From the NCBI GenBank assembly GCA_003252535.1, contig QKDN01000069.1, positions 1 through 59,737 on the forward strand: a stretch of 59,737 nt of DNA. The letters are read 5' to 3'. Position 1 is the stretch's first letter, and the number at the start of each line of letters is the position of its first letter. The notes under the pieces are model-generated. The model saw nothing but the letters and a program-made list of their open reading frames with translations, was not told the origin of the DNA and made no database searches. The DNA comes from Campylobacterota bacterium. Its GTDB lineage: Bacteria > Campylobacterota > Campylobacteria > Campylobacterales > Sulfurovaceae. A program made the translations under genes and the position numbers. Of this stretch, positions 1,758 to 12,061 are shown one piece after another.

Positions 1758-2789
1758 ATGGACAAACTAATAGAAAGCGCTCTACAAACAGTGCCAAACT
1801 TTGTGATTTTCAAAATTGATCATTCTAAAGTCAATATTGATGTACTCTTTTCCGATGAGACACTATGGCTCACTCAAAAGCAAATCGCAGAACTTTTTGA
1901 AACGACACCGCAAAATATTACTTTGCATCTAAAAAATATCTATCAAGAGAATGAACTGAGAGAAGATGCAACTTGTAAGGATTTCTTACAAGTTCAAAAA
2001 GAGGGCAATCGAGAAGTAAAAAGAAACCGAAAATATTACAATCTCAAAGCCATCACAGCCGTAGGGTATCGTGTTAATTCCCACCGTGCTACGGAGTTTA
2101 GAAAGTGGGCAACGGATGTATTGCATGAGTACATTATCAAAGGCTTTGCGATGGATGATGAGCGGCTCAAAAGTATGCATCATTTTGGCAAAGATTATTT
2201 TGAAGAGCAGTTAGATCGTATACGAGAGATACGCCTCAGTGAGCGACGATTTTATCAAAAGGTAGCCGATATTTATGCATTGAGTGCCGACTATGATAAA
2301 AATGCACCCCTCACAAAAGAATTTTACGCCACACTTCAAAACAAAATGCACTGGGCAATTACAGGCAAAACTGCCGCTGAAATAATCTATAGCGAAGCTG
2401 ATGCTGCGAAGATATTTATGGGGCTTCAAACATGGAAAAATGCACCTCACGGCAAGATACTGAAGTCCGATGTCACCATAGCCAAAAACTATCTCAATGA
2501 AGAGCATATCAACCAGCTCAAACGCATTGTTTCTGCCTATTTGGATTTGGCAGAGAACCGGGCGATGCAGGGCATTGTGATGAATATGCAGGATTGGATC
2601 GTGTTTTTGGATAAGTTTTTGGCGCTCTCGGACTATCCGATATTGCTTGATAGCGGTAAAGTTTCAGCCCTGGAAGCCAAACTCAAAGCCGAAAGTGAAT
2701 ATGAAAAATATCGTGTAATACAAGATGAGACATATATCAGTGACTTCGACAAGCTGCTTCTGGATATGGAAAACAATGAAACCCATTAA
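1758..2789 (+). CDS. RhuM family protein
   Basis: 343 residues, full length for the RhuM ('virulence protein') family. An N-terminal winged-helix-like region contains LWLTQKQIAELFETTPQNIT (residues about 35-54), then VKRNRKYYNLKAITAVGYRV and the RATEFRKWATDVL motif shared with the family. The C-terminal half is helical and ends in a typical SDFDKLL tail. The biochemical role of the family is not established; members sit in mobile islands, often beside restriction or toxin genes. GAGGAG lies 8 bases before the ATG. Its last 14 bases overlap the next gene, and base composition jumps exactly here, so this is the right end of the accessory island. Confidence 0.85.
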   Translation: MDKLIESALQTVPNFVIFKIDHSKVNIDVLFSDETLWLTQKQIAELFETTPQNITLHLKNIYQENELREDATCKDFLQVQKEGNREVKRNRKYYNLKAITAVGYRVNSHRATEFRKWATDVLHEYIIKGFAMDDERLKSMHHFGKDYFEEQLDRIREIRLSERRFYQKVADIYALSADYDKNAPLTKEFYATLQNKMHWAITGKTAAEIIYSEADAAKIFMGLQTWKNAPHGKILKSDVTIAKNYLNEEHINQLKRIVSAYLDLAENRAMQGIVMNMQDWIVFLDKFLALSDYPILLDSGKVSALEAKLKAESEYEKYRVIQDETYISDFDKLLLDMENNETH

Positions 2790-3411
2790 TACCTACATCC
2801 CCAAAAACTGGCAGCTTTGGGTCAATATCTATATCTTCGTCAACCTCGCCCTCTACGGCGCGTGGAGCGGCTATACCGCATGGAAGGAGGGGCGGCTTGA
2901 CTTCGTCGAGGTCTCCTTCATCGTGCAGAATATCCTGATGCTCGCCTTTATCCTCATCCGCGTCGATCACAGGAGTATCCAGACCAATCTCCGGCACCAG
3001 TCCATCGCCCTCTTTGCCTTCTTCTCCGGTGTCGCGTTCATGGGACAGGAGCCCACGGGAGGCGAGCTCGCCAATGCCGTCTCGGGCTGGATCATCTTCC
3101 TCGCCAATATCCTCGGCGCGGTGGCGATGCTCCATCTCGGGAGGAGCTTCGGGATACTCATCGCCCTGCGCAGGGTCAGGACGAGCGGGCTCTACAGTAT
3201 CGTCCGCCACCCGATGTACGGCGCCGATATCCTCCTGCGTATCGGCTTTGTCGTGAGCCACTTCAACGCCTATACCCTCCTCCTCTTCATCGTCTCTACG
3301 GGCGCCTATATCGCCCGGGCGCTCTACGAAGAGGAGTTCCTGAGCCGTGATCCCGAGTACAGGGAGTATATGCACCATGTCCGCTACCGTTTTATCCCGT
3401 TCGTTTACTAA
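2776..3411 (+). CDS. Isoprenylcysteine carboxyl methyltransferase (ICMT/PEMT)-like membrane methyltransferase
   Basis: 211 residues with about five hydrophobic segments. The C-terminal half has the ICMT/PEMT signature: LGRSFG, then VRTSGLYSIVRHPMYGADIL (RHPxY is the SAM-pocket motif), and a terminal EEEFLSRDPEYREYMHHVRYRFIPF block. The family methylates small molecules or lipids at the membrane using S-adenosylmethionine; the substrate here is unknown. The ATG at 2776 is preferred because an upstream in-frame ATG (2725) would lie well inside rhuM. Thirteen bases separate the stop from the next gene, so it is probably co-transcribed with the two radical SAM genes, suggesting a joint modification pathway. 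Confidence 0.8.
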   Translation: MKPINTYIPKNWQLWVNIYIFVNLALYGAWSGYTAWKEGRLDFVEVSFIVQNILMLAFILIRVDHRSIQTNLRHQSIALFAFFSGVAFMGQEPTGGELANAVSGWIIFLANILGAVAMLHLGRSFGILIALRRVRTSGLYSIVRHPMYGADILLRIGFVVSHFNAYTLLLFIVSTGAYIARALYEEEFLSRDPEYREYMHHVRYRFIPFVY

Positions 3412-3423
3412 GGAGACCACCCG

Positions 3424-4806
3424 ATGAAAAACCTGCCGCTCTACTACAAGACCAGAACCCTCTGCCCCGTATGCAACACCCTCGTCGACGGGGAGATCGT
3501 CGCCGAGGACCGGAAGGTCTATATCGAGAGGGAGTGCCCCGAGCACGGACACTTCAAGGGGCTGATCTGCTCCGATCAGACATGGTACGAAGAGCTCCCA
3601 CACTACTATGTCGACGGGATCAAACCGCAAAACCCGACCAAAAAAGACCTCTCAGGGTGCCCCGAGGACTGCGGTATATGCTCGATGCACTCGCAGATAG
3701 CGGGGACGCTGGCGATCGAGATACTCGACTCGTGCAATGAGAACTGCCCCACCTGCCTCGCCAACAATATCGGCAGCTTCATGATGAGCGTGGAGGATGT
3801 CCAGAGAGCCGTCGAAGCGGGGCTGAAGAACCAGGAGTTCATCTCCACCGTCACCATCTCGGGGGGAGAGCCCACCCTCCATCCCGACCTCTTCGCTATA
3901 CTCGATGTGCTGCAACGACCCGAGATAGGGAGAGTCTCTATCAACACCAACGGGAAAAGAATCCGAGATGACGAGGCGTTCGTCCGGCAGCTCGCCACCT
4001 ATGACAATATCTACCTCAGCCCGCACTACGACGGGAGCAAGGCCCTCGCCCTCCGGGGTGTCACCTATGAGGAGCAGAAACGCACCATCGGGATACTCCA
4101 GTCCCACGGGATCGATATGGTACCAGTCGTCCTCGCCACCGCAGGGCACAACGACCACGAGCTGGGGAAACTCCTCGACGAGCTCTTCCTCAACTACTCC
4201 CATGTCAAATCGGTGATGTTCTCGCTGATGACCTACAGCGGCAAAGAGGGGAGCCACTTCGCCAATGATCCCCTCACCCGCCTCACCATCCCCCAGGCGA
4301 TCGAGTCGATCGGGGAGTCTTCGGAGAGCATCCTCAAAAGCGACTTCATCCCCCTCCCGATGGCGAACCCCATGTGCGCGTCGATAGGCTACTTCATGGT
4401 GATGGACGGCGAGATCACACCCCTGATCCGTTTCGGGGAGCGCGAGCGGATCGTCGGGTATATCAAGAACGGCCACTTCGGCAACCTGACCCCTGAGTTC
4501 GCCGACTTCATCCAGGAGTCGATCTACCATATCTTCTCCCATTCGGATCGGTACGAGTACTCCGACAGGCTTTTGGATAAGTTCAAACGACTTTACAAGC
4601 TCCTCTTCCCCGACGACAGGCAACTGACACACGAGGAGCGGGTCAGACTCGCCGCCGAACACCTCCGCGTGGTCTACCTGATGCAGTTCATGGACAGCTG
4701 GAGCTTCGATTCGCAGCGGCTCAACCGATGCAGCTGCCACCATGCCTTCGGCTCTGGGGAGATCATCCCCACATGCAGCTTCTACTGCTACCACAGGAGT
4801 ATCTGA
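3424..4806 (+). CDS. Radical SAM protein, Tes/MJ0619-like (first of a pair)
   Basis: 460 residues. The N-terminus has cysteine pairs of a zinc/iron-binding module (LCPVCNTL, ECPEHGHF, then CPEDCGIC at about residues 79-86). The radical SAM cluster motif CNENCPTC (CxxxCxxC) follows, with the SAM-binding GGEP in TISGGEPTLHP. The end carries more cysteines (CSCHHAFGSGEIIPTC) in the pattern used by MJ0619/Tes relatives to bind extra clusters. Archaeal Tes couples lipid chains and MJ0619 methylates a pterin; which chemistry applies here is unknown. AAGGAGA lies 8 bases before the ATG. It sits directly after the ICMT-like gene and before a paralogue. Confidence 0.8.
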   Translation: MKNLPLYYKTRTLCPVCNTLVDGEIVAEDRKVYIERECPEHGHFKGLICSDQTWYEELPHYYVDGIKPQNPTKKDLSGCPEDCGICSMHSQIAGTLAIEILDSCNENCPTCLANNIGSFMMSVEDVQRAVEAGLKNQEFISTVTISGGEPTLHPDLFAILDVLQRPEIGRVSINTNGKRIRDDEAFVRQLATYDNIYLSPHYDGSKALALRGVTYEEQKRTIGILQSHGIDMVPVVLATAGHNDHELGKLLDELFLNYSHVKSVMFSLMTYSGKEGSHFANDPLTRLTIPQAIESIGESSESILKSDFIPLPMANPMCASIGYFMVMDGEITPLIRFGERERIVGYIKNGHFGNLTPEFADFIQESIYHIFSHSDRYEYSDRLLDKFKRLYKLLFPDDRQLTHEERVRLAAEHLRVVYLMQFMDSWSFDSQRLNRCSCHHAFGSGEIIPTCSFYCYHRSI

Positions 4807-4819
4807 AATGTGTGTGACC

Positions 4820-4910
4820 TGCCTCCAAAGAGAGTGCGAGAAGCCATGCGCCCAACCCATGAAATGGGCGCTTGCGTTCGCATTGCGCAGGAGCGCTCTC
4901 TTTGGAGGCA
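4820..4910. repeat. Long inverted repeat with nested hairpin between the two radical SAM genes
   Basis: Perfect 15-base arms, tgcctccaaagagag (4820-4834) and its complement (4896-4910), extend imperfectly outward to about 4815 and 4915. Inside them lies a second stem, gcgccca (4848-4854) with tgggcgc (4865-4871). The whole fills most of the 143-bp gap. It could be a small non-autonomous palindromic element or a transcript-level structure tuning the second gene. There is no T-tract, so a simple terminator is unlikely. Confidence 0.75.
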
Positions 4911-4949
4911 GTGACTTGGAAGCAACCCAAAAAAGGAGACATTGATAAT

Positions 4950-6311
4950 ATGAATATGAAAGAGATATTTTCCTATACCTACGCGGTATGCGTGGAGTGC
5001 GACGAGAAGATTCAAGCGCGTATCATTGCCGAGGATGAGAAAGTCTACCTCGAAAAGTGCTGCCCTGTACATGGTGTCTCTCAAGAACTCATCTCCTCCG
5101 ATGTCACCTGGTACCGGGAGAGCCGCAGCTATGTCAAGCCCCGACAGCTCCCCCTCGACCACAAGGTCAAGTCGTTCGTAAGCTGCCCCGAGTCGTGCGG
5201 CAGCTGCTCCGAGCACCAGCAGCACACCTGCCTCCCGGTCATAGAGATCACCCAAAAGTGCAACCTGGAGTGCCCGGTGTGCCTGAAGGATTTGAACAAA
5301 ACGCCCTATATCACAGAGGATGAGTTCGGCTCTATCATCGATGATCTGCTCCGCTACGAAGGGAAAGTGGATGTGATCAATATCAGCGGGGGCGAGCCCC
5401 TCCTCCACCCCGACTTCGAGAGACTTCTCGATATCGCCTACCGCAAGGGGATCACCCAGGTCACCGTCTCGACCAACGGCCAACCGCTCCTCAACAGTAC
5501 CCGGATACGCCAGGCATTCAAAAGGACGGGGGCGATCGTAGCGCTCCAGTTCGACGGGTTCGCCCCCGAGACCTATCTCAGGCTCAGAGGGGAAGATATC
5601 AGCAGTGACAAACAGAGGATCATCGAACTCCTCGAGTGCGAAGAGATCAACTACTCGCTCGTATCGACCATCTCCAGCGGTCTCAATGACAGGGAGATCA
5701 CCGACATCGTCGACTTTTTCTTCGGCTCCCGGGCGATATCGCTGATGTTCCAGCCCGTCTCGTATGTGGGGAGTGCGAAGGAGCTCTACGACGGGGAACG
5801 GATCACCACCGTCGATATGATCAGAGAGATCGAAAAGAGCCGCTTCGTCAAAGAGGGGGATTTCAACCCCCTCCCCTGCTCCCACTACTCCTGCTTCGCC
5901 CTCTCCTACTACATCAAACTCGACGATGAGAACTATGTCAGCCTCAAGGATTTCCTCGCCGACGAGTACCTCGACATCATCGCCAACAAAACCCTCCCCG
6001 GACTCGATGCCCAGGGGCTCCTGAGCATCCGCAACAGGATATACGAGCTCTGGTCGGCAGCAGACACCTCATCGCTCGACGGCGAAGTGCTCAAAAGGAT
6101 CAAGGGGATACTCAACGAGCTCTCCAGCTGCGCCTGCGACCCCAAAAGAACCCTCGAGCTGGGCATGAACTCCATGAAAGCGATCTTCATCCACGAGTTC
6201 ATGGACAAACACACCTTCGATTTTGCCCGCATTGTCAAATGCTGCAACCCCTACGCCTTCAAGGACGGCAGCCTCATACCGATGTGCGTGCAGAATGTAT
6301 TCAGGCAGTGA
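4950..6311 (+). CDS. Radical SAM protein, Tes/MJ0619-like (second of a pair)
   Basis: 453 residues. N-terminal cysteine module (VCVECDEK, KCCPVHG, then CPESCGSC), radical SAM motif CNLECPVC, and NISGGEPLLHPDF for SAM binding. VSTNGQP and LQFDGFAPETYLRLRG match the MJ0619/Tes core. The C-terminus has CCNPYAFKDGSLIPMC, the family's DG-x-x-P-x-C auxiliary-cluster pattern, here clearer than in its upstream partner. An earlier in-frame ATG at 4872 lies inside the inverted repeat; the ATG at 4950 with AAAAGGAG upstream is the better start. The two proteins share architecture but are well diverged, so they probably catalyse different steps. Confidence 0.8.
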   Translation: MNMKEIFSYTYAVCVECDEKIQARIIAEDEKVYLEKCCPVHGVSQELISSDVTWYRESRSYVKPRQLPLDHKVKSFVSCPESCGSCSEHQQHTCLPVIEITQKCNLECPVCLKDLNKTPYITEDEFGSIIDDLLRYEGKVDVINISGGEPLLHPDFERLLDIAYRKGITQVTVSTNGQPLLNSTRIRQAFKRTGAIVALQFDGFAPETYLRLRGEDISSDKQRIIELLECEEINYSLVSTISSGLNDREITDIVDFFFGSRAISLMFQPVSYVGSAKELYDGERITTVDMIREIEKSRFVKEGDFNPLPCSHYSCFALSYYIKLDDENYVSLKDFLADEYLDIIANKTLPGLDAQGLLSIRNRIYELWSAADTSSLDGEVLKRIKGILNELSSCACDPKRTLELGMNSMKAIFIHEFMDKHTFDFARIVKCCNPYAFKDGSLIPMCVQNVFRQ

Positions 6312-6320
6312 GCTAAATTC

Positions 6321-6974
6321 TTAACTCTTAACTCTTAATTCAAGAGCTTTCTCCACGCACGTATCGATCATCGGCTCGGATGCCACGAAGCACCGGGTGC
6401 CTTCGGGCAGGTGGGCTTTGGTCGCTTCCCCTATCACGACCGCGGTGTAGCTCGCATCCCACCCGAAATTGTCCAGGAAACAGCGGATCGTGGAGGGGGA
6501 AGTGAAAATGATGATCGATCCCTCTTCGGGTTTGTCTTCCGGTACATATTCGACACAACCCGTCTCGTAGATCACCTGTTCCCCCAGCTCTATCCCTTCA
6601 CCTGCAAGGGCGGCTTTGATATCGTAGGAGACTGTTTTGGGTCTGAGGTAGAGTATCCTGGCATTGGCAAAGAGCTCTTTGATATCCTCGGCAAGCTCTT
6701 TGGCATAGTAGTTGACCGGCACATGCCCTACCCTGCCGCCGCGCTTCTCGATCTCTTTTCGTGTAGCTTCGCCTATAGCGATGGCGGGAACTGTTTTGCA
6801 TTGCGGCTCTATCGTATAGGCGGTTCTGACAGCTTCCTTGGAGGTGAAGAGGAGATAGTCGTACCCCTCATAGCAGATAGCGTCGGCGCACTGAGTGAAG
6901 GAGATCATAGGGAGGGAGTCCACCCCCTCCCTGGGCTGGGGCGAAAGGAGGTAGATCGGGGGCTCAGCGTGCAT
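6321..6974 (-). CDS. hemD: Uroporphyrinogen-III synthase
   Basis: 217 residues from the Met of MHAEPPIYLLSP. It closes linear hydroxymethylbilane into uroporphyrinogen III in haem and tetrapyrrole synthesis. Family marks are DYLLFTSKEAVRTAY near residue 45, AIAIGEATRKEIEK, YLRPKTVSYDI, and IIIFTSPSTIRCFLDNF followed by AVVIGEATKAHL. Overall sequence conservation in HemD is low. The start overlaps the end of the CDF exporter gene by 11 bases, so the two are translationally linked. A longer version starting at 7013 exists but would lie deeper in that gene. Confidence 0.8.
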   Translation of the reverse strand: MHAEPPIYLLSPQPREGVDSLPMISFTQCADAICYEGYDYLLFTSKEAVRTAYTIEPQCKTVPAIAIGEATRKEIEKRGGRVGHVPVNYYAKELAEDIKELFANARILYLRPKTVSYDIKAALAGEGIELGEQVIYETGCVEYVPEDKPEEGSIIIFTSPSTIRCFLDNFGWDASYTAVVIGEATKAHLPEGTRCFVASEPMIDTCVEKALELRVKS

Positions 6975-7896
6975 GGGGAGCCAGGAGCGACTCGCCGTTG
7001 AAGACCGCGTCATTCATCGCTTCGTCGTCGTAGGGATCGAAGTGGGGAGTGATCACCCAGCGTTTGTTGCTGTCGAGCGCCATGATCCTGTCCTCGATCT
7101 GCTCGGCGATCCTGTGGGCTTCAAGGAGGAGCATATTGGGGCGGAGCACCATGTGGAACTCTACGAAGTTCGTCGAGCCGTCGGTGCGGGTCTTGAGCCA
7201 GTGGAAGCTTGTCACCTCGGGGTGTTTCCCGATGATACTCTCGATATTCTCTACTTTTTCCGCCTCAAGCGCATGGTCAAGGAGTATCTTGACACCCTCT
7301 TCGATGATCTCGTAAGCGGAATAGACGATATAGACGCCGATCCCCAGACCGAAGAGGACGTCGATGATGTCATACCCGGTGAGCCATACGAGCCCCAGAG
7401 AGAGGAGGATCACGCCGTTGCTCCAGAGGTCGGTCTGGTAGTGGAGTGCGTCGGATTTGATGACGAGGTTATCGGTCTCCCTGGCCACTTTGAGCAGATA
7501 CTGGACAAGGATGAACGTAGCGATGATCGAAAATGTCATCGCCACGATCGAAGGCATCAGGAGGGTCGTATCGCCGCCCTTGAGTCCTTTCTCGACTGCC
7601 TTGTACATGATGAAGATGCCCGAGATGGTGATCACCGTCCCTTCGATCACCGCTGCGATCGCCTGTATCTTCCCCTTGCCGTAGTGGAAGAACTCATCGG
7701 GGTCCTCTTCGGACTTCTTGATCGCGAAGAAATTGAAGATCGAAATGACCGTATCGAGGAGCGAATCGATCGCCGAAGCGAGTACGGCTACCGAACCGCT
7801 GGCGATACCTATCACGAGTTTGACGAGCACAAGGATCATCGCGACCGTACTCGAGACGATCGTAGCGCGTTTCTGGGGTGATATCGAAGTATTCAT
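6964..7896 (-). CDS. Cation diffusion facilitator (FieF/YiiP-like) metal exporter
   Basis: 310 residues, typical CDF length. Metal ion/proton antiporter of the inner membrane. TM2 carries SAIDSLLDTV (the DxxxD metal site, here S-x-x-D after A). The His/Asp site HYQTDLWSNGVI is in TM5, and EEDPDEFFHYGKGK is the conserved loop after TM2. The soluble C-terminal domain begins near VENIESIIGKHP and includes FVEFHMVLRPN. The start MNTSIS has AGGAGGG just upstream, better than the ATG codons farther out. Substrate (Fe, Zn, Cd) cannot be told from the sequence. Followed by hemD. Confidence 0.85.
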   Translation of the reverse strand: MNTSISPQKRATIVSSTVAMILVLVKLVIGIASGSVAVLASAIDSLLDTVISIFNFFAIKKSEEDPDEFFHYGKGKIQAIAAVIEGTVITISGIFIMYKAVEKGLKGGDTTLLMPSIVAMTFSIIATFILVQYLLKVARETDNLVIKSDALHYQTDLWSNGVILLSLGLVWLTGYDIIDVLFGLGIGVYIVYSAYEIIEEGVKILLDHALEAEKVENIESIIGKHPEVTSFHWLKTRTDGSTNFVEFHMVLRPNMLLLEAHRIAEQIEDRIMALDSNKRWVITPHFDPYDDEAMNDAVFNGESLLAPHAR

Positions 7897-7944
7897 TTTC
7901 CCTCCTGTCATGTTTTGGTCGGCTCCCTTTGTCCCGGGACCCAT

Positions 7945-9240
7945 CTAGTGCTCCAGACCCTGGACCGCTTCGATACAGTCTGTGATATCGCCGTAGAAAC
8001 TGTAACGGTTCCTCCCCTGCGACTTGGAGCGGTACATCGCCTGGTCAGCCTTGTTGAGGAGCTGGAACTTGCCGTCGGCATCTTTGGGGTAGCAGGCGAT
8101 TCCGACGCTCACCCCTATCATGATCGCCTTGTCGTCGATCTGGTACCTCGAGCTGACGGACTCGATGATCTTCTCGGCGACCTTCGTGATCCCTGCCGTA
8201 TCGATATTGTCACGGAGCAGTACGATGAACTCATCACCGCCGTAGCGTGCGATGAAGCCTTCTGCGGGGATACACCGCTCGAGCCGTCCGGACACACATT
8301 GCAGCAGACGGTCTCCGAGGTCGTGACCGTGCCGGTCATTGACCTCTTTGAAGAAGTCCAGGTCGAGGAACATCAGCACGAAAGGCTCGTTCTGTTCTAC
8401 CATGAAATCAAGCCTGTCGTCAAGACCTATCCTGTTATAGAGCTTGGTCAGGCCATCCCTGTAGGCGATGTTCAGAAGATGCTCTTTGTCGTTCTTGTGT
8501 ATGGTGATATCATGGGTGAAGATGATGATATCCTCCAGCTGGTTCTTCTCGTTGAATGTCGGGATAAAGATGGCATTGACATGGACCAGTGTGCCGATAT
8601 TCGTTTTGAGGTTGAGATTGGTCGTGTATATCTTGTCCTGCACCATATACTTGAGTATATCGCTTTGGACGAAAGGTTCGTCGACTATTGCCCCGAAGGT
8701 CTTCTTTCTGAGTTCATACTCGCTGTATCCGCTCAGCTGTACGAAGCTCATATTGCCCGAGACGATATCAAAACCGGGAGTGACATGGACCATCGGTATC
8801 GATTTGTAGGTCGCTTTCCTGTATTTGTCCAGGAGATAGTTCTTGTAGGAGAGCTCCCTCAGGAGAAGCTCGTTCTTGTTGCGGTCCTGCAGGATCGCCT
8901 GCTCTTCCTGGACTCTCTGTGTCATATCGTTGATCAATACCACATAGACATTCCCGGGGAGATGGTAGCGGATATAGAGATCGATGTAGAAATCGTTCTT
9001 GTTGACCTTTTTCATCTGGAACGACTTCTCTTCCCCGGTCTGGAGCTTCTCGAAAGTATCCTCGTATCCTATGAACTCATACAGGTACTCCCTGACATCG
9101 CGTTCTGCTTCCAGCTCCTCATCGAAATACCTCGAAACCCTTTTCGAGAAATCCCTCACATGATACCCGCTGTCAAATACGAGATAATCGATCTGGCACT
9201 CGTCCGAAGCCATATCGCACAGTTCTTCAAAGCTCAACAT
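7945..9240 (-). CDS. PAS-GGDEF diguanylate cyclase
   Basis: 431 residues from the ATG that overlaps the GTPase stop (TGATG); a GTG three bases earlier is also possible. The N-terminal half has PAS-like sensing regions (DYLVFDSGYHVRDFSKRVSR, and MVHVTPGFDIVSGNMSFVQLSGYSEYELRKK with a closing FTHDITIHK). The C-terminal GGDEF domain runs from AYRDGLTKLYNR to the end, with an intact YGGDEF signature, so it should make cyclic di-GMP. The position of the inhibitory RxxD site, five residues before GGDEF, reads PAEG, so feedback inhibition through that site is absent. It is last in the GTPase/OmpA cluster. Confidence 0.9.
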   Translation of the reverse strand: MLSFEELCDMASDECQIDYLVFDSGYHVRDFSKRVSRYFDEELEAERDVREYLYEFIGYEDTFEKLQTGEEKSFQMKKVNKNDFYIDLYIRYHLPGNVYVVLINDMTQRVQEEQAILQDRNKNELLLRELSYKNYLLDKYRKATYKSIPMVHVTPGFDIVSGNMSFVQLSGYSEYELRKKTFGAIVDEPFVQSDILKYMVQDKIYTTNLNLKTNIGTLVHVNAIFIPTFNEKNQLEDIIIFTHDITIHKNDKEHLLNIAYRDGLTKLYNRIGLDDRLDFMVEQNEPFVLMFLDLDFFKEVNDRHGHDLGDRLLQCVSGRLERCIPAEGFIARYGGDEFIVLLRDNIDTAGITKVAEKIIESVSSRYQIDDKAIMIGVSVGIACYPKDADGKFQLLNKADQAMYRSKSQGRNRYSFYGDITDCIEAVQGLEH

Positions 9241-9743
9241 CACTCTGTGATCCTTCCTGCCAGTACGGCAAAGAGCTCCTCGACGTTCTGCCCGCTCTTG
9301 GCGGAGGTGTAGAGCGTTGCGGCAATACCCGGATAATCCTTCAGCAGGGGCTCCATATCGAACCTGAAGCCGGGATCTTTGTCGATCTTGTTGACCGCTA
9401 TGACCGTGGGGATGGGACCGTTGACACTGTAGAGGTCTTCAAGATGTATCTTCAGGGTCTCCCCGATATGTTCGGATGTGATATCGGTGACGACGATCGC
9501 CCCCGCTGCCCCTTTGATATAGGTCTTGTTGACCCTCCTGATATTGTCAAGCGCCCCCTCGACGTCCCAGATGAGGAGCATCAGTTTCTTGTCGCCTGCA
9601 TCGATCATCTTTTTGGATATCTTCACCCCTATCGTACTGATGTAGTCGTCGCTGAAACTGTTGTCGACATAACGCCTGATCAGCGAGGTCTTCCCTACCG
9701 AGAAACTCCCTATAAGGATGATCTTTTTCTGGATGATGCTCAT
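9240..9743 (-). CDS. Bacterial Ras/Rab-like small GTPase
   Basis: 167 residues, a single G domain. G1 P-loop GSFSVGKTSL (residues about 12-21), switch I threonine in DDYISTIGVKI, G3 as WDVEG, G4 NKID, G5 TSAK. The fold matches Rab/Arf-like bacterial GTPases such as MglA. In eukaryotic Ras the G3 box is WDTAGQ; here the Gln position is Ala (WDVEGAL), which suggests slow or activator-dependent hydrolysis. No lipidation signal is visible. It overlaps the OmpA-domain gene by 4 bases (ATGA) and the cyclase by 1, so the three are made together. Likely a switch acting on the OmpA-domain protein or the cyclase. Confidence 0.9.
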   Translation of the reverse strand: MSIIQKKIILIGSFSVGKTSLIRRYVDNSFSDDYISTIGVKISKKMIDAGDKKLMLLIWDVEGALDNIRRVNKTYIKGAAGAIVVTDITSEHIGETLKIHLEDLYSVNGPIPTVIAVNKIDKDPGFRFDMEPLLKDYPGIAATLYTSAKSGQNVEELFAVLAGRITE

Positions 9744-11575
9744 TTATTCAGCTCCCACTCGAAAGTTGCACATCTTGACAGCTGCGAATCGTCGGCCGTG
9801 CCGTTGCTGTCGATGAAGTCCGGACGCTTCGCGAAGCTCCTGACGATCACCTTCTGTTCGTCAAAGCCTCTCTCGATCAGCGCCTCCCTGATCTTATCGG
9901 CACGTGCGTACGATATCTTCCTGTTGATATAATCCGGACCGATCTCGTCGTTGTATATGTATATCTTCAGGAAATAATCCCCGTACTGCTTATGCAGTGC
10001 CACCGCACGGTCGAGCACCGCAGTGTACTCCGGAGCGATCTCGACAGAATCGAACTCAAAGTAGATATTCTCGATCTTCGTGACCGTACGGATATCGAAG
10101 TGCAGCACACGATGTCCGAAGTTCTTCTGTGCCGATTCGATGAACTTCTTTTTGATCGTTTCATTGACAAGGGTACCGCTGAAGGAGACTTCGTTCCCCT
10201 TGAAGGTATACGAGATATCCGACCTGTAGAGACCGTTGATCTTGACGATAAAGCTCTTCAGCCTCATGGTCTCGTACCTTCTGTCAAAGCTGCTGTTGAA
10301 GCTGGTATCGAAGTTCTTCTCGAAATTGACATCGAAGTTCCTGACGAAGTCATCCTCGACAGACTGGACCATACTCAGGGCGTTATATCCCTTCCCGAGG
10401 GCTTCGATACGCTCTTTCTCCTCTTTCTTGAGTACCATTCCGCTGAGGATGATCTTGCCGTTCTCCCGGGTTGTGATATCCATATCGTAGACATGGATGC
10501 GGTTCTTCTCTGTGATCAGCTCTTTGAGGGCAAGCTCCTTCTGCTTCACTTTGTACGCCAGGTATTCCGTGTAGCCGTACCATCCCGTGGGCGCCGCCAG
10601 GAGTATTGTCACGAACAGTACGCCGAGTATCGGGAACTTCTTCTCCCTGGCTGCGGTGTGCTCCTTGACGAAGAGGGCAGAGAGGATCACCTTGATATCC
10701 GCGATATCTATACTGCTCGTATCACCGTCATAGTTCATCAGCTCCCGGGAATACTTGTCGACCACCTTCGAGAGGACTTTGGCCAGTTTGTCCTTCATGT
10801 CGATCTTGTTCCGGGTGACCACGGCGAGGTAACTGCTCCCTGCGCTCTCGATCGAGATGGATGAGTTGCCGTACTCGATCTCGCTGAGTTCGCTGAGCTT
10901 GTTGTCGTTGCTGATCCAGTCGTTGACGAAGCTTCGTATCGCACTCAGCATCGAAGCGACCATCTCAGCCTCTTCGAACTTGTAGTTCTCCTCGCGGTAG
11001 AGGTCGACTATCAGCAGCCCCGACTCCTTATGGATCAAAAAGACCGCATCGACAGAACTGAAGTCTGCCTCCTGCATCAGCATCTGCGCTTCGCTGATAC
11101 CGAGCAGTCTGGCCCTGAACTTCCTCTTCCATCTGGCGAAAGAGAGGGAGTTCTCAAGCTTCTGATTGATCTCGAGCATCATATCCTTGATGGCGCTTGA
11201 GACATACTTGCTGATCATATTACCCATGATGGGGTAGAGGGCATCGACGATCAGATCCTTCTGCTTGTGTACCTGTTCCTGGATGGTCGAGAGGATCACC
11301 GGGTAGAGTATCTTCTGCAGCTCCTCGTCCGAGCGGTGCAGCTCGTCGAGCAGCCCCTTGGAGATGATCGGTTGTATCGCCCCGTAGAACTGTCCCCTGT
11401 TCTCCTGTATCGCTTTGGATACGACCTGCGTAATAAGCTGCGAGAGCCTCTCTACGAGGACATCCTTCTCCTGGGCGTGCTCCAGTTCGCGGATATCCCT
11501 GACCATCCTGTTGATGGTAGCGAGCTCCTCGTCGAAGAGCAGTCTTTTGAGTTTGCTATAGTCGTCAAGTATCAT
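9740..11575 (-). CDS. Trans-inner-membrane protein with cytoplasmic roadblock-like region, BON-like repeats and OmpA domain
   Basis: 611 residues. No N-terminal signal peptide. Residues 1 to about 315 are cytoplasmic: a helical region (RLSQLITQVVSKAIQEN, DALYPIMGNMISKYVSS), then VDAVFLIHKESGLLIVDLY and EMVASMLSAIRSFVNDW, which resemble a roadblock/LC7-type GTPase partner domain (inference). One membrane helix (FPILGVLFVTILLAAPTGW) lies near residue 320. The periplasmic part has two BON-like segments (KIILSGMVLKKEEKERIEAL; VSFSGTLVNETIKKK) and a C-terminal OmpA-like peptidoglycan-binding domain (IYFEFDSVEIAPEYTAVLD to the end, with the ISYARADKIREALIERG helix). It could link a cytoplasmic GTPase to the cell wall. 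Confidence 0.8.
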   Translation of the reverse strand: MILDDYSKLKRLLFDEELATINRMVRDIRELEHAQEKDVLVERLSQLITQVVSKAIQENRGQFYGAIQPIISKGLLDELHRSDEELQKILYPVILSTIQEQVHKQKDLIVDALYPIMGNMISKYVSSAIKDMMLEINQKLENSLSFARWKRKFRARLLGISEAQMLMQEADFSSVDAVFLIHKESGLLIVDLYREENYKFEEAEMVASMLSAIRSFVNDWISNDNKLSELSEIEYGNSSISIESAGSSYLAVVTRNKIDMKDKLAKVLSKVVDKYSRELMNYDGDTSSIDIADIKVILSALFVKEHTAAREKKFPILGVLFVTILLAAPTGWYGYTEYLAYKVKQKELALKELITEKNRIHVYDMDITTRENGKIILSGMVLKKEEKERIEALGKGYNALSMVQSVEDDFVRNFDVNFEKNFDTSFNSSFDRRYETMRLKSFIVKINGLYRSDISYTFKGNEVSFSGTLVNETIKKKFIESAQKNFGHRVLHFDIRTVTKIENIYFEFDSVEIAPEYTAVLDRAVALHKQYGDYFLKIYIYNDEIGPDYINRKISYARADKIREALIERGFDEQKVIVRSFAKRPDFIDSNGTADDSQLSRCATFEWELNK

Positions 11576-11581
11576 ACAGGA

Positions 11582-12061
11582 TTATTCCGACCTCTGACCG
11601 CTTACGCTCTCTTCGATACTCTCCCCTTTGAGTTTCAGTGAATATTCAAAGAACATCGATGCCAGGTCTTTCTTGGAAACGTTCTTGCTGGTATAATCGT
11701 CCTTAAGGTTGCGGAGGCTCTTCTCGATCCTCTGTTTCAACAGATCGATGAACTTGTCGGCGTTCTCTTTGTTGGCGACCACCTCGTCCCTGAGGGTATC
11801 GAGCCCGATCTTGTGGAGATTGCCGTTCTCTTTGATCTTCTTGTTGATACTCTCTTCGAGATAGTCGAAGCGCTCCGAAAAGGTCTTGTCGAGCTGATTG
11901 ATGCGGGAGGTCAAAAGCGTTGAGAGCTGGTCGATATCTTTCCTGTGTCTCTCCTCTATCTCTGAAAGCTTGTCTTCGAGAAACTGCATTTGATTGCGGT
12001 ATTCACCGACGAACTCCCCGATGAGCAAATCCCTGATCTGATCCATATTCTTTTCTGTCAT
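11582..12061 (-). CDS. Coiled-coil protein of the GTPase/OmpA cluster
   Basis: 159 residues, strongly charged, almost wholly predicted helix and coiled coil (MQFLEDKLSEIEERHRKDI, then RFDYLEESINKKIKENG and KQRIEKSLRNLKDDY). No signal peptide or membrane helix, so probably cytoplasmic. No family recognised. It is first in the cluster, six bases before the OmpA-domain gene. It may scaffold or regulate the GTPase; that is inferred only from position. A second possible start is the Met at residue 6. Confidence 0.75.
   Translation of the reverse strand: MTEKNMDQIRDLLIGEFVGEYRNQMQFLEDKLSEIEERHRKDIDQLSTLLTSRINQLDKTFSERFDYLEESINKKIKENGNLHKIGLDTLRDEVVANKENADKFIDLLKQRIEKSLRNLKDDYTSKNVSKKDLASMFFEYSLKLKGESIEESVSGQRSE

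Follow-up and report, generated by a model that had tools for sequence, protein, structure and literature searches.

A Group 1 Rup-type GTPase module of Campylobacterota with a predicted trans-envelope OmpA protein carrying a probable roadblock/longin-type domain

The eukaryotic Ras/Rab group has been proposed to derive from the Rup family of bacterial/archaeal small GTPases. The Group 1 Rup system was described in 2014 by Wuichet & Sogaard-Andersen (PMC4316618). According to that paper, its gene neighbourhood comprises a coiled-coil cytoplasmic protein, a protein in which a conserved cytoplasmic domain is followed by an inner-membrane helix and an OmpA domain, the Rup GTPase, and an output enzyme. 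The output is a cyclase/phosphodiesterase or a histidine kinase with a conserved N-terminus containing an invariant Gln. In the same paper, Rup GTPases are described as lacking the Gln of the G3 motif, the conserved domain of the OmpA protein was left as a 'domain of unknown function', and no Rup member is given as characterised by 2014 (PMC4316618). In the later literature that could be searched, we found citations of the 2014 paper only, and no experiments on Rup.

The window analysed here is a stretch of 59,737 nucleotides from a Campylobacterota bacterium. Its minus strand carries between 7945 and 12061 four tightly packed ORFs, all confirmed present, which encode, in the order 12061 to 7945, a coiled-coil protein, an OmpA protein, a GTPase, and a diguanylate cyclase (Table 1). 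A gap of 6 bases lies between the stop of the coiled-coil gene and the ATG of the OmpA gene, the end of the OmpA gene overlaps the start of the GTPase gene by 4 bases, and the GTPase stop and the cyclase ATG share 1 base (AGTGATG). The overlapping or near-touching ends reported in the initial annotation, with both overlap lengths, are thus correct. The cyclase ATG at 9240 is preferred over a GTG at 9243, which would give 432 aa, because its Met is an invariant column in an alignment of 17 outputs. A domain scan gave a Ras match for the GTPase (5.5e-25), a GGDEF match for the cyclase (1e-41), an OmpA match (5.7e-10) with a weak BON match for the 611-aa protein, and coiled-coil-like matches only for the product of the first gene. 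Scans of the four proteins against Pfam, NCBIfam, PHROGs, and PADLOC gave nothing besides Ras, GGDEF/PAS, and OmpA. Weak coiled-coil matches to unrelated families were disregarded, and a reading of the four genes as a defence system was rejected. An Rfam scan of the window gave 0 matches, and promoter and terminator scans gave results at chance level only.

Table 1. Positions of the module genes and of their domains and motifs in the window.
Feature	Position	Strand	Remarks
Coiled-coil cytoplasmic protein P0004	11582..12061	-	159 aa, 38% charged residues
OmpA inner-membrane protein P0003	9740..11575	-	611 aa
Probable roadblock/longin-type domain, residues ~155-290 of P0003	10706..11113	-	AF2, Foldseek, hhalign, conserved residues
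Predicted single membrane helix, residues 314-332 of P0003	10580..10636	-	hydropathy of P0003 and 22 relatives
OmpA-family domain, residues 505-597 of P0003	9785..10063	-	Asp and Arg of usual peptidoglycan-binding motif kept (YNDEIG...YARAD)
Ras/Rab-like small GTPase P0002, Group 1 Rup type	9240..9743	-	167 aa
G3 motif WDVEGA, GTPase residues 59-64	9552..9569	-	catalytic Gln missing, Glu precedes Gly
Output enzyme P0001, PAS-PAS-GGDEF diguanylate cyclase	7945..9240	-	431 aa from ATG
N-terminal PAS fold of P0001, to residue ~108	8920..9240	-	AF2, Foldseek PAS matches, alignments; common to family outputs
QxxNxxxL motif, residues 119-126 of P0001 (Q119, N122, L126)	8866..8889	-	helix after N-terminal PAS; alignment
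GGDEF catalytic domain of P0001	8005..8466	-	GGDEF motif intact

The locus has all four parts of the Group 1 Rup neighbourhood: a Ras/Rab-like single-domain GTPase without the G3 Gln, a coiled-coil neighbour, a neighbour with membrane helix and OmpA domain, and a signalling output with a conserved N-terminus. From this gene-for-gene neighbourhood and from the sequence features, we are nearly certain that the module is a Group 1 Rup system. The initial annotation could put no name to the architecture; one does exist, as it was published under that designation in 2014 (PMC4316618). The closest PDB relatives of the GTPase are Rabs. In 56 GTPase-output pairs that were compared, with some loci counted twice, the catalytic G3 Gln occurs in 0/56 GTPases and WDxEG in 56/56; the MglA-type G3 (TVPGQ/GTPGQ) is not present. 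Searching the same genome with the GTPase as query turned up just one further Ras-like domain, in a 959-aa LRR-Roc-COR (Roco) protein (L056:5808-8684, G000:C70).

The OmpA protein consists of a helical N-terminus, the conserved domain (hereafter the platform domain), the membrane helix, a periplasmic linker with the weak BON match, and the OmpA domain. By hydropathy, the protein has a single strong hydrophobic segment (314-332) and lacks one near the N-terminus, with the same pattern in 22 relatives, and the N-terminal half is predicted to be cytoplasmic. Hydropathy and the domain scan agree with the topology first proposed for this protein, which had no signal peptide, one mid-protein helix, a cytoplasmic half, and a periplasmic OmpA end. 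The Asp and Arg kept in the OmpA domain are the residues normally used on peptidoglycan; OmpA domains sometimes bind other things. A near-invariant segment, DALYPIMGxMISKYV, lies in the helical N-terminus at residues 107-127 (window ~11195-11257), where AF2 confidence at 109-126 is low (pLDDT < 50).

An AlphaFold model of residues 1-315, based on an alignment of 46 sequences, has a mean pLDDT of 75.9. Values are about 60-97 across the platform domain and moderate, at 60-89, in blocks within 171-230. In the model, helices at 162-170, 203-223, and 261-280 and strands at 174-182, 188-193, 232-235, 238-245, and 248-255 give the alpha-beta-beta-alpha-beta-beta-beta-alpha topology of the roadblock/longin fold at 162-280. 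The top 50 Foldseek matches in the PDB are roadblock and longin proteins throughout, including TRAPP (5.5e-5), Ragulator, Fuzzy-Inturned (CPLANE), a Streptomyces roadblock protein, MglB, and Mon1-Ccz1, together with the related AP/COP small subunits. Alignment of the platform region by hhalign to a profile of 17 roadblock proteins gave a score of 28.2 (P 4e-4), with a register in agreement with the fold; 60 column shuffles gave at most 15.2, and PAS, GGDEF, and GTPase profiles gave 11-14. The sequence match itself is weak, with an hhalign probability of 34%. A sequence-only PDB search with the platform profile gave no real match, so the fold assignment is based on the structural comparison together with the profile alignment. 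No match to Robl_LC7 (PF03259) above the Pfam cut-off is among the families listed for the 46 platform members, and searching the genome for Robl_LC7 revealed no separate MglB. The domain is therefore described as roadblock-like by fold and not as a Robl_LC7 member, since the signal is profile-to-profile only and lies below that cut-off. On the model and the profile alignment, we consider a roadblock/longin-type fold of the platform domain very probable. The initial annotation had guessed a roadblock-like segment at about 160-285 and suggested structure prediction against MglB/roadblock folds; two independent methods, AF2 with Foldseek and hhalign, confirm the guess, with MglB among the matches.

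Co-occurrence of the genes was surveyed with one profile HMM per gene, counting only loci with enough sequence. In 55/55 testable loci, the coiled-coil gene lies immediately upstream of the OmpA gene. The GTPase gene is downstream of the OmpA gene in 44/51 and non-adjacent in 7/51, and in 42/42 the GTPase is followed by an output enzyme that has the N-terminus common to the family. The four genes are a conserved unit whose order is kept across dozens of genomes, far beyond chance, and the gene-neighbourhood survey called for at the outset has thus found them kept together. The alternative that unrelated housekeeping or envelope genes happen to share a loose operon is contradicted by this survey and is extremely improbable. 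Ordinary genes directly downstream in the window, for cation efflux (6964-7944) and HemD (6321-7013), do run in the same direction as the module. However, the four-gene order is kept across families, part of the set reaches Cyanobacteria, and flanking genes vary between the loci inspected. Also in the window, on the plus strand, are tandem radical SAM proteins with an HMPTM zinc ribbon (3424-4806 and 4872-6311), adjoining an ICMT/PEMT-type methyltransferase (2725-3411). Among NCBIfam models, the pair comes nearest to the tetraether lipid synthase Tes and to TrsS, well under cut-off in both cases, and it is possibly an unusual lipid-synthesis pair in a Campylobacterota genome.

A family-level search found the conserved cytoplasmic half in 24/120 genomes, including that of the window; most of the remaining matches in its table cover no more than the OmpA domain. 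When contigs of GTDB genomes were scanned, 57 named loci came up in Sulfurovum, Sulfurimonas, Arcobacter/Aliarcobacter, Nitratifractor, and others, as well as in two Symploca cyanobacteria and a single contig with the label Flavobacteriaceae. The distribution is patchy, with the module in 7/298 well-assembled genomes of the phylum. Split loci in Campylobacterota break into a coiled coil-OmpA part and a GTPase-output part (for example, L071/L059, L089/L065, L096/L067, and L121/L063). The Symploca homologues carry the same parts as the window module, and there a second copy of the coiled coil accompanies the GTPase-output pair, which is located elsewhere. Genome G086, which is 97% complete, has the OmpA half, and a search of it for the GTPase found none. 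At one platform locus (L101:7749-11230), two GTPase-output pairs follow each other. The output of the first is a histidine kinase and that of the second is another output of the family, an arrangement suggesting that one platform can serve several switches.

The following mechanism is proposed for the module. The OmpA protein would be fixed in the inner membrane and would grip peptidoglycan. Its roadblock-type domain and the coiled-coil protein would form a platform for binding the GTPase and for setting whether it carries GTP or GDP, much as MglB acts on MglA or TRAPP on Rab1. The GTP-loaded GTPase would then engage the N-terminal PAS/helix of the output and switch the enzyme, altering c-di-GMP production; in relatives, the same switch would drive a histidine kinase or a class III nucleotide cyclase. 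With a wall-anchored platform and a GTPase-switched output, an envelope signal, such as wall state or location, would become a second-messenger or phosphorylation signal. This combined mechanism is the best of the readings considered, and we put its probability at slightly better than even, roughly 55%. Two of its parts are each somewhat more secure: by analogy, it is fairly probable that the platform directly controls or docks the GTPase, and equally so that the GTPase switches the output enzyme via the N-terminal PAS. Both contacts, GTPase with roadblock domain and GTPase with PAS, are suggested by gene linkage and analogy. That the input signal comes from the wall is a more doubtful part of the proposal.

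The platform may instead be only a scaffold, which docks the GTPase at the envelope as Ragulator docks Rag GTPases and leaves its nucleotide state unchanged, with the GAP and GEF encoded elsewhere. Ragulator and Fuzzy-Inturned, both platforms, are among the best structural matches. However, MglB and TRAPP match equally well and act on nucleotide state, and no separate GAP or GEF candidate is conserved beside the four genes, so we regard a pure scaffold as somewhat unlikely and prefer a platform that controls the GTPase. It is conceivable, at a little under even odds, that a roadblock/longin-type domain in a trans-envelope, wall-binding protein exerts direct control over the Rab-like Rup GTPases of bacteria. 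If this is true, the pairing of Rab-type GTPases with longin/roadblock regulators seen in TRAPP and Mon1-Ccz1 is also bacterial and is wired there to exchangeable outputs.

What is the function of the conserved output N-terminus? In the AF2 model of the N-terminal 140 residues of the cyclase (pLDDT 93.5), a PAS domain, supported by Foldseek PAS matches, is followed by a long helix. Among 17 outputs, including that of the window, 13 have GGDEF and 4 have HisKA/HATPase domains; the output of the closest relative of the window (L069) is a kinase, and a Symploca output is a class III nucleotide cyclase. Since the outputs share the N-terminal PAS and differ in the catalytic domain, the N-terminus appears to be a constant adaptor and the catalytic domain exchangeable. 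No RxxD inhibitory site was found in the usual slot of the cyclase. The whole genome (G000) encodes 17 EAL domains, that is, rich c-di-GMP turnover, and gave no match to a PilZ-type c-di-GMP receptor.

The 2014 authors proposed that the output N-terminus is a GAP that completes the active site of the GTPase in trans with its conserved Gln (PMC4316618), in which case the cyclase would control the GTPase and not only be controlled by it. The absence of the G3 Gln from the GTPases is in keeping with this, as is the near-invariant Q119 that follows the N-terminal PAS domain, which we assume to be the Gln of the published logo. However, position 119 is Gln in 49/55 pairs and Lys in 6/55 (Sulfurimonas, Arcobacter; one further pair is gapped), the G3 Gln is likewise missing from the GTPases paired with the Lys outputs, and His takes this position in one Symploca output. 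Thus, if the assumed correspondence holds, Q119 cannot be a universal catalytic residue. The truly invariant residues are N122 and L126, the same in 43 outputs, and the Gln sits in the long post-PAS helix, a position typical of signal relay and not of a catalytic finger. We therefore consider this GAP role unlikely; the invariant G3 Glu or the roadblock partner are possible alternatives to a Gln supplied in trans.

Relative to the published Group 1 Rup system, the architecture is the same and what is new is the probable fold of the OmpA-protein domain, the common PAS adaptor with swapped catalytic domains, and a trans-Gln that, if it is Q119, is not universal. The comparison also adds Campylobacterota members, and a class III nucleotide cyclase among the outputs; the previously unnamed domain is here assigned a probable roadblock/longin fold, and the output N-terminus a PAS fold. 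The conserved partner is thereby a concrete candidate regulator for Rup, and the question of which protein is its GAP or GEF is reduced to a two-protein binding assay. In this module, a small GTPase would be connected at one end to the cell wall and at the other end to c-di-GMP, phosphorylation, or another cyclic nucleotide.

The fold assignment makes the Rup system a parallel to MglA/MglB, conservons, and the eukaryotic Rab regulators. The actinobacterial conservon (CvnA-D) likewise unites four genes, among them those for a small GTPase, a roadblock protein, and a signalling protein of the kinase type. However, its GTPase is of the MglA type, with a GTPGQ G3 that retains the Gln, its roadblock protein CvnB is free-standing, and there is no OmpA domain; the window module, with another GTPase type and other partners, lacks the conservon set of a CvnA kinase with LPxR tail, CvnB, CvnC, and CvnD. 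MglA/MglB shares the small GTPase and the roadblock-fold partner, but MglB is a soluble dimer, MglA itself provides both a Gln and an Arg finger, and no output enzyme has a fixed place beside the genes. TRAPP, Mon1-Ccz1, and Ragulator, which regulate Rab or Rag GTPases, share the fold class of the platform domain, and the window GTPase is nearest the Rabs, whereas these regulators are eukaryotic multi-subunit complexes on endomembranes without a wall-binding domain.
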